Shown here one piece after another: positions 40,454 to 42,704 of a stretch of 64,000 nucleotides of DNA. This DNA comes from an uncultured Burkholderiales bacterium (lineage in GTDB: Bacteria; Pseudomonadota; Gammaproteobacteria; Burkholderiales; Burkholderiaceae_C): assembly GCA_903864315.1 (NCBI GenBank), contig CAIPFK010000152.1:124001-188000 (forward strand), read 5' to 3'. The notes beneath the pieces were generated by a model. That model saw only the letters and a list, made by a program, of their open reading frames with translations, made no database searches and was not told the DNA's origin. The position numbers and the translations under genes were made by a program. How positions within the stretch are numbered: position 1 is the stretch's first letter; each line of letters begins with the position of its first letter.

Positions 40454-41080
40454 ATGCACCCCAATCTCAGAATCGTCGTTGTCGCACCCGACTTGGTTAC
40501 CGAAGACTCTCAAGATGAACACGCGGTGTCCCTGATCGAGAGATCCAAAACCCTGCGCATCGGTTTATTGGAAAACGGCTACAACTTGATCGCAACCTTG
40601 CCTGCCGATGTTTTTTTAGCAGAGCGCATTGCACAATTGCAACCCGATTTGATCATCGTGGACGCAGAAAGCGACGCTCGCGACGCGTTGGAGCACGTGG
40701 TCATGGCCACGCGCGACGAGCGACGCGCCATCGTGCTCTTCACTGATGATGAGGATACAAGCCATGTGAATGAAGCCGTGGCTGCGGGGGTGAGTGCTTA
40801 CATCGTCTCAGGCCTTTCACCGAGTCGCATCAAGCCGATCTTGGATGTTGCCATGGCGCGCTTTGAGCACGAACAACGCTTGCGCACCGAACTTTCACAC
40901 GCCCAAGAAGCGTTGGTGACGAAAAACGTGGTCGACCAAGCCAAGACACTGATCATGAAAAGACAAAAAATTTCGGAGCCCGAAGCCTACGCCAAAATAC
41001 GCAAAATCGCGATGAACAAAGGGCTCAAACTCGCCGATGTCTCACAACAAATCATCGACATGGCTGAACTTTGGCTTTGA
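40454..41080 (+). CDS. nasT: ANTAR-domain response regulator, NasT-like
   Basis: Pseudo-receiver domain plus C-terminal ANTAR (VVDQAKTLIMKRQKISEPEAYAKIRKIAMNKGLKLADVSQQIIDMAEL); adjacent to nitrate assimilation operon. Confidence 0.88.
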   Translation: MHPNLRIVVVAPDLVTEDSQDEHAVSLIERSKTLRIGLLENGYNLIATLPADVFLAERIAQLQPDLIIVDAESDARDALEHVVMATRDERRAIVLFTDDEDTSHVNEAVAAGVSAYIVSGLSPSRIKPILDVAMARFEHEQRLRTELSHAQEALVTKNVVDQAKTLIMKRQKISEPEAYAKIRKIAMNKGLKLADVSQQIIDMAELWL

Positions 41081-41125
41081 TCATCACTGTCGACACTTGT
41101 GCAACGCACAAATATCGAGCAAGAC

Positions 41126-41156
41126 GATGCACTCAATATCACCAAAACAGTGCATC
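41126..41156. promoter_or_regulatory. Inverted repeat GATGCACT-N15-AGTGCATC, possible NtrC-type enhancer site
   Basis: Perfect 8-bp arms read directly; GCAC/GTGC half-sites about 176 bp upstream of the predicted sigma54 start site. Confidence 0.35.
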
Positions 41157-41194
41157 CATCCCCATTTTGATTCCTGGCTTGATGGACCACCTCT

Positions 41195-41225
41195 TGTTGG
41201 AGTGATCAACTCCAACATATTTTTA
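41195..41225 (+). terminator. Probable nasT terminator
   Basis: TGTTGGAGT-GATCA-ACTCCAACA followed by TATTTTTAAT. Confidence 0.65.
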
Positions 41226-41290
41226 ATACTTTTATATTATTTTTAATATTCATAGAACCGTTTGCTGCCCTTCAGGTCAGAAATCCACAA

Positions 41291-41306
41291 CGGCATATTA
41301 ATTGCA
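41291..41306 (+). promoter_or_regulatory. Candidate sigma54 (-24/-12) promoter for the nitrate operon
   Basis: cGGCAt-ATTAA-TTGCA: GG-N10-GC spacing, near consensus TGGCAC-N5-TTGCA. Confidence 0.6.
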
Positions 41307-41337
41307 ATGCCAGTGTAAACCCTTAGCGGTTAGTGTT

Positions 41338-41353
41338 TGACCAACGAAGGTCA
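41338..41353 (+). promoter_or_regulatory. ANTAR-target (NasT-type) hexaloop hairpin P2 in the nitrate operon leader
   Basis: TGACC-AACGAA-GGTCA; loop has A1 and G4 as in known ANTAR RNA motifs; a weaker hairpin AACC-CTTAGC-GGTT (41318-41331) precedes it. Confidence 0.7.
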
Positions 41354-41368
41354 GATATCAGGGCAAAG

Positions 41369-41420
41369 ACGTCCAAGCCATCTGTGCGATGAACACAGTT
41401 GAGCCTGGACGTTTTTTTTT
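41369..41420 (+). terminator. Leader terminator/attenuator upstream of nrtA
   Basis: ACGTCCA ... CTGTG-CGATGAA-CACAG ... TGGACGT then 9 T. Confidence 0.9.
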
Positions 41421-41459
41421 GTGTGTTTCGTTTTCAACTGTTTTAGAAAGAGAGCCGCC

Positions 41460-42704
41460 ATGACTCCATTTTCCCAACAATCGATGAGTCGCCGCACCGT
41501 ATTGCAAGCCGCCACGGTGGGTGCCATCGGAGTAGATCCCGCACTCAGGGCCGCCGTTTACGCACAAGGATCTGACAAACCGGAGAAAGAAGAAGTAAAA
41601 ATCGGATTCATCCCACTCACCGATTGCGCAAGCGTCGTGATGGCCTCGGTTTTGGGCTTTGATAAAAAATACGGCGTCAAAATCATCCCCACCAAAGAAT
41701 CGAGTTGGGCTGGCGTGCGTGACAAACTCATCACCGGAGAGCTTGACTGTGCACATGTGCTTTATGGGCTGATCTATGGCGTGCATTTAGGGATTGCCGG
41801 ACCCAAAAAAGACATGGCAACACTCATGACGATTAATCGCAATGGTCAAGCCATCACTTTGTCCAAAAAACTCGCCGATCAAGGTGCAGTGGATGGCGCG
41901 AGTTTGGGCAAATTGATGAACAAAGAAAAACGCGAATACACCTTCGCGCAAACTTTTCCAACAGGCACGCATGCGATGTGGCTGTATTACTGGCTCGCCA
42001 GTGTGGGCATCAACCCCATGAAAGACGCCAAAGTCATCACCGTGCCCCCACCACAAATGGTGGCCAATATGCGCGTGGGCAATATGGACGGCTACTGCGT
42101 GGGTGAGCCCTGGGGTCACCGGGCCATTGCTGACGGCATTGGCATCACGGCCATCACCACGCAAGACATCTGGAAGGATCATCCAGAAAAAGTCCTGGGC
42201 ACCACCGCAGAATTTGTGAGCAAGTACCCCAATACTGCACGCGCGGTGACGGCGGCCATTTTAGAAGCCAGCAAATGGATCGACGCGGGTTTACAAAACA
42301 AACTCAAAATGGCCGAAACCATTGCCGACAAATCGTATGTCAACACCAGCGTTGACGTGATCAATCAGCGCATTTTGGGGCGGTATCAAAACGGTTTGGG
42401 CAAGACCTGGGATGACCCCAACTACATGAAGTTTTATGACGATGGCGCGGTCAATTTCCCCTACCTCTCAGACGGCATGTGGTTTTTGACACAACAAAAG
42501 CGCTGGGGCCTCCTTAAAGACCATCCCGATTATTTGGCCACCGCCAAGCAAATCAACCGCATTGACTTGTACAAAGACGCGGCCTCGATCACCAAGACGC
42601 CGGTCCCCAAAGACGTGATGAGAACGAGCAAGCTCCTTGACGGCACCGTTTGGGACGGCAAAGACCCCAAGAAATACGCTGACAGTTTTGCTATTCACGC
42701 TTAA
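41460..42704 (+). CDS. nrtA: Nitrate ABC transporter substrate-binding protein (NrtA/NasF-like), Tat-like signal
   Basis: SRRTVLQAATVGA signal; EVKIGFIPLTDCASVVMASVLGFDKKYGVKI; HAMWLYYWLASVGINP. Confidence 0.92.
   Translation: MTPFSQQSMSRRTVLQAATVGAIGVDPALRAAVYAQGSDKPEKEEVKIGFIPLTDCASVVMASVLGFDKKYGVKIIPTKESSWAGVRDKLITGELDCAHVLYGLIYGVHLGIAGPKKDMATLMTINRNGQAITLSKKLADQGAVDGASLGKLMNKEKREYTFAQTFPTGTHAMWLYYWLASVGINPMKDAKVITVPPPQMVANMRVGNMDGYCVGEPWGHRAIADGIGITAITTQDIWKDHPEKVLGTTAEFVSKYPNTARAVTAAILEASKWIDAGLQNKLKMAETIADKSYVNTSVDVINQRILGRYQNGLGKTWDDPNYMKFYDDGAVNFPYLSDGMWFLTQQKRWGLLKDHPDYLATAKQINRIDLYKDAASITKTPVPKDVMRTSKLLDGTVWDGKDPKKYADSFAIHA

Follow-up and report, generated by a model that had tools for sequence, protein, structure and literature searches.

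The window analysed here, a 64,000-nt stretch of DNA from an uncultured Burkholderiales bacterium whose genome assembly is 89.6% complete, carries on its forward strand nasT and, directly 3′ of it, nrtA. nasT (40454–41080, +; the ATG at 40454 is assumed, and the frame is open from 40382) encodes a pseudo-receiver and ANTAR antiterminator (Pfam ANTAR, 64 bits; Response_reg weak, 18 bits), which is the sole ANTAR protein of the genome; in most relatives nasT also lies directly upstream of nrtA. nrtA (41460–42704, +) encodes a nitrate-binding protein with a conserved twin-arginine signal and is the first gene of nrtABD-nirBD-nasA-ybiB-cobA, a cluster that runs to about 52119 and is presumably co-transcribed as an operon. 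The nasT–nrtA intergenic region (41080–41460) was read letter by letter and compared with 80 related nrtA loci, from which 73 leaders could be anchored together with the window (n = 74). A perfect 9-bp inverted repeat, TGTTGGAGT-GATCA-ACTCCAACA followed by T-rich TATTTTTAAT (41195–41217, +; one found, 0.2 expected), is probably the nasT terminator, insulating the leader, and no sigma70-type promoter was found between 41080 and 41460.

A preliminary description of this DNA, made from its letters, had proposed a sigma54 promoter, an ANTAR-target hairpin and an attenuator ahead of nrtA. The sigma54 −24/−12 element CGGCATATTAATTGCA does lie at 41291–41306 (+), with its GG at 41292–41293 and its GC at 41304–41305; its −24 element, CGGCAT, is weaker than the family consensus. 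As stand-alone evidence the motif had to be rejected, since its counts in the window are at chance level (GG-N10-GC, 724 against 714 expected; GGCA-N6-TTGCA, 3 against 2.3). The call becomes compelling through conservation at a fixed position in relatives rather than through the lone match: GG-N10-GC stands at a fixed distance in all 74 leaders, window included, within a conserved TGGCAC/TTGC context (TGGCA almost always, TTGC in 71), and only 0.4% of shuffled regions scored as high as the lowest-scoring sigma54 element observed. The predicted transcription start is at about 41317, 12 nt past the C of the −12 element.

Upstream of the promoter we found two NtrC-type dyads that the preliminary description had missed, as it had the probable nasT terminator: CGCACAAATATCGAGCA (41105–41121, +; 185 bp upstream of the −24 element) and ATCACCAAAACAGTGCA (41138–41154, +), with their centres 33 bp apart. 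Each has one mismatch to GCAC-N7-GTGC and both are weaker than the family consensus; the exact motif is found upstream in 58 of 73 relatives, whereas mononucleotide shuffles predict 0.4. Both dyads may serve as NtrC sites. The genome encodes RpoN and an NtrC scoring 610 bits, above the curated cut-off, and its further NtrC-family matches score below the ntrC cut-off.

Beyond the predicted start, the leader holds three hairpins and an intrinsic terminator. H1 (AACC-CTTAGC-GGTT, 41318–41331, +) is the 5′-terminal hairpin; its loop is degenerate, lacking the A1/G4 hexaloop pattern, as had been noted before. H2 (GTGTTTGACC-AACGAA-GGTCAGATAT, 41333–41358, +) is a 10-bp stem capped by a canonical A1/G4 hexaloop; the preliminary description had correctly seen its core (TGACC-AACGAA-GGTCA, 41338–41353) and overlooked its extension. 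H3 (GGGC-AAAGAC-GTCC, 41361–41374, +), also overlooked, has a canonical A1/G4 hexaloop on a 4-bp stem, and its 3′ arm doubles as the 5′ arm of the terminator. The terminator, with arms (G)ACGTCC(A)/(T)GGACGT(T) and nine T (41367–41420, +), pairs ACGTCCA (41369–41375) with TGGACGT (41406–41412) ahead of a T run (41412–41420) that ends 39 nt before the nrtA ATG at 41460, much as originally described. H2 corresponds to P1 and H3, the antiterminator, to P2 of Ramesh et al. 2012, and this is a standard dual-hexaloop ANTAR target because H3 fits their definition of P2: it carries the second of two tandem A1/G4 hexaloops and overlaps and excludes an intrinsic terminator; an ANTAR protein is encoded as well. 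The suggestion that the leader is a variant with a single canonical hairpin was therefore wrong.

Folding was consistent with this arrangement. The minimum-energy fold of the nascent RNA to 41375 comprises H1, H2 and H3 (−19.5 kcal/mol); the terminator itself has a folding energy of −22.3 kcal/mol, and the full leader reaches −40.8 kcal/mol with the terminator against −28.3 kcal/mol with H3 forced. H3 and the terminator are mutually exclusive, as this computation shows. The H2–H3 linker is 7 nt if H2 pairs over 5 bp and 2 nt if the 10-bp stem forms; in the Enterococcus faecalis eut leaders linkers span 5–12 nt, and 3 or 14 nt impaired induction (Ramesh 2012). The preliminary description had also placed the start near 41317, which agrees with our prediction, and had called the resulting leader very short; a hairpin only a few nucleotides past +1 is normal in this leader family, where in most of the 74 leaders the first one begins between +2 and +6.

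The preliminary description had let its reading depend on conservation of the hairpins in close relatives, and they proved both conserved and co-varying. The H3 loop is A1/G4 in 69/74 leaders, most commonly as GGAC-AAAGGC-GTCC, and its arms co-vary (GGAC/GTCC in 62, GAAC/GTTC in 8, AGAC/GTCT in 1 and GGGC/GTCC in 1, the window), so that the upstream arm, which lies outside the terminator, changes in step with the shared terminator arm. For the covariance model we used alignment A2, made of 53 three-hairpin leaders with the window excluded; it replaced alignment A1, in which MAFFT had misaligned H2 of the window with H1 of the relatives. Loop positions A1, A2 and G4 of H2 are invariant in these 53 leaders, a result free of our script's preference for A1/G4 loops. 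Changes on both sides were seen in 10 of the 14 pairs (87 such cells, against 25 when shuffled), and 96.2% of cells pair, against 29–48% in slid versions of the alignment. All three hairpins are thus backed by compensatory changes. With the window-free model the window leader scores 26.4 bits, at E = 3.5e-6 for the window and E = 1.9e-4 genome-wide, and there is no other significant leader site in the bacterium's own genome, so the RNA leader, unlike the lone sigma54 match, is significant by itself. One related nrtA locus (L046), whose ANTAR neighbour is divergent (41% identity), has a sigma54-like element, no recognizable H3 and no matching terminator.

Most relatives carry H1 at the 5′ end of the leader. 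Of the 60 three-hairpin leaders, 28 have an A1/G4 loop in H1 and the others a degenerate one, and its stem is kept, with 97.6% of cells paired in the 53 leaders and double changes in 3/4 pairs. In the window and the two relatives nearest to it, the stem AACC/GGTT is retained around the loops CTTAGC, CTTAGT and CTAGGC. This additional 5′ hairpin, canonical in some relatives and degenerate here, looks less familiar than the rest; H1 looks accessory, and might add a docking site in leaders where it is canonical, or else stabilize the 5′ end. Neither type of ANTAR reader, NasT or NasR (see below), cleanly explains the state of the H1 loop, and a link between H1 decay and a missing adjacent ANTAR gene was dropped, as the NasT-only query behind it had missed the NasR genes of Variovorax. 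Some loci of the genus (L107, L110–L122 and L128) have a two-hairpin leader, in which a single hexaloop hairpin comes immediately before the antiterminator hairpin; the first of the two hairpins in L113, L114, L116 and L120, AACC-CTCCAA-GGTT, is not A1/G4, and only H3 is canonical there.

The gene for the putative leader-binding protein differs among relatives. Upstream of the leader, 54 loci carry a NasT-like ANTAR gene and 16, those of Variovorax and its relatives, a NasR-like one, and the one NasR tested (L058) has a NIT domain (Pfam, 177 bits). In the NasR-like loci (L027, L028, L037, L038, L043, L049, L051, L052, L057, L058, L060, L064, L071, L076, L083 and L089) this gene lies about 1.6–0.35 kb upstream of nrtA, replacing nasT before the same leader. 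The apparent swap of readers on a conserved RNA, one leader with either NasT or a NIT-ANTAR NasR, looks less familiar and suggests that a single leader can be used with two different ANTAR proteins. Among genomes of the genus, an ANTAR gene was present in 33/35 of those with a close nrtA and in 5/49 of those without one.

NasS, a nitrate-binding, NrtA-like protein, is the usual nitrate-sensing partner of NasT. The NasS part of such a NasS–NasT two-component system was not detectable in the bacterium's own genome (89.6% complete), where no protein but NrtA scores strongly with PF13379, nor in two NasT-positive genomes of the genus that are 99–100% complete (G028 and G034), where NrtA is the sole PF13379 hit, nor in the upstream DNA examined at the 80 nrtA loci. 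The lack of a detectable NasS likewise looks less familiar, and raises the concrete question of how NasT senses nitrate. It is conceivable, although we think it rather unlikely, that this betaproteobacterial branch uses NasT without NasS and receives nitrate through another partner, with an originally triple-hexaloop leader in which H1 was an early docking site for NasT that decayed in this lineage. If so, NrtA, the first product of the operon, would before export be one candidate sensor, closing an autoregulatory loop; such a second, cytoplasmic role of NrtA is only a guess, and the idea of NrtA as a cytoplasmic NasS is weakened by the twin-arginine signal in essentially all relatives.

The leader is of a known kind, grouping with nalA/P11, which precedes nirBD in Pseudomonas, and with nasF of Klebsiella. 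The Pseudomonas nalA-nirBD system joins an NtrC/sigma54 promoter to NasT antitermination (PMC12830290, PMC3973561), and NasR/nasF of Klebsiella is the classical ANTAR case (PMC3369936). We take the nalA leader to be P11 RNA (RF00625) because RF00625, which aligns to relatives of our leader, shares the leader elements (−24/−12 elements, a hexaloop hairpin and GGACAAAGGCGUCC) and because PMC12080996 describes P11 as regulating the nitrogen assimilation operon of PA14. The window resembles P. aeruginosa nalA/P11 (nirBD-PA1779-cobA; Romeo et al. 2012) in its NtrC/sigma54 promoter, its hexaloop hairpin, its likely control by NasT, a GGACAAAGGCGTCC antiterminator hairpin overlapping the terminator, and an operon with nirBD, a nitrate reductase gene and cobA; it differs in having nrtABD and ybiB in the cluster and the extra 5′ hairpin H1, and in that NasS was not found. 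With Klebsiella oxytoca nasF it shares an ANTAR-controlled attenuator whose P1 and P2 have A1/G4 hexaloops, with P2 in the terminator arm, but the reader here is not a NIT-ANTAR protein but NasT with a pseudo-receiver; upstream of the Variovorax relatives of this leader there is a NIT-ANTAR NasR. The eut leaders read by EutV in E. faecalis likewise use a dual A1/G4 hexaloop antiterminator (Ramesh 2012; Walshe 2022), but with ethanolamine and phosphorylation signalling, no sigma54 and no third hairpin.

Taken together, we consider it highly probable that nrtA is preceded by an NtrC/sigma54-activated promoter and an ANTAR (NasT) attenuator leader. Computation shows that the elements are present, conserved and co-varying, that H3 and the terminator exclude each other, and that the genome encodes RpoN, NtrC and one ANTAR protein; homology, conservation and folding point further to the start site, the binding of NasT, the dependence on nitrate and the co-transcription of the operon. 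In the mechanism we propose, nitrogen limitation would lead phosphorylated NtrC, bound about 150–185 bp upstream, to activate sigma54-RNA polymerase at 41291–41306. RNA would start near 41317 and fold successively into H1, H2 and H3, and NasT, when free, would bind H2 and H3 at their A1/G4 hexaloops and hold H3 in place. Because H3 sequesters the 5′ arm of the terminator, transcription would then continue into nrtABD-nirBD-nasA-ybiB-cobA; without free NasT, the stronger terminator would form, releasing about 104 nt of leader RNA. A sigma54 promoter, a NasT/ANTAR target and an attenuator would hence make a two-input gate on the nitrate-assimilation cluster, as the preliminary description had suggested, and the comparative and protein evidence supports this. 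The logic is already established for Pseudomonas nalA and so is not new; its presence here would extend it to a common freshwater betaproteobacterial lineage.

Other readings of these elements account for them less well. NasT could act via H2 alone, with H3 as no recognition element, and this would suit both the non-A1/G4 loop of H1 in the window and the argument that an ANTAR dimer makes contact with a single hexaloop at any one time (Walshe 2022). H3, however, is canonical and conserved (A1/G4 in 69/74 leaders), changes in its non-terminator arm are matched in the terminator arm, and it fits the published definition of P2 (Ramesh 2012), and we rejected this reading as very improbable. Scarcely credible, too, is a region with a terminator only, be it a P11-like sRNA gene or an ordinary terminated sigma54 transcript, in either case without regulated read-through into nrtA. 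Rfam does file the related Pseudomonas leader as ‘sRNA P11’ and the terminator is strong (−22.3 kcal/mol), but the hexaloops are conserved and nasT is adjacent, the nrtA ATG lies 39 nt past the T run and a sigma70-type promoter was not found at 41080–41460, and P11 itself has been linked to regulation of the nitrogen assimilation operon (PMC12080996).

Were the sigma54 promoter activated by a protein other than NtrC, the first input would not be general nitrogen status; the one mismatch in each window dyad and the further NtrC-family hits below the ntrC cut-off would allow for this. The occurrence of GCAC-N7-GTGC in 58/73 relatives, the presence of a true ntrC and the NtrC dependence of Pseudomonas nalA (PMC12830290) nevertheless make another activator improbable.

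Rfam models did not capture the leader. The narK RNA (RF03032) shares a CCAACG hairpin loop and (GA)CAAAGACGTC with the window leader and scores 15.8 bits on the window, against a gathering score of 43.2, and P11 (RF00625) gives no match there at E ≤ 10; assignment of the window to either was rejected, both being below threshold. Relatives score 28–37 bits with RF00625, below its gathering score of 70. Because none of the scanned leaders, window included, reaches an Rfam gathering threshold, our leader alignment and covariance model should be useful for annotation. When the model was run against 81 genomes of the family, one per genus, 35 matched, some of them two or three times. Eight genomes (G102, G105, G112, G114, G122, G124, G146 and G170) have 2–3 leader matches each, often few kb apart, and may represent small NasT/NasR regulons in other genera.
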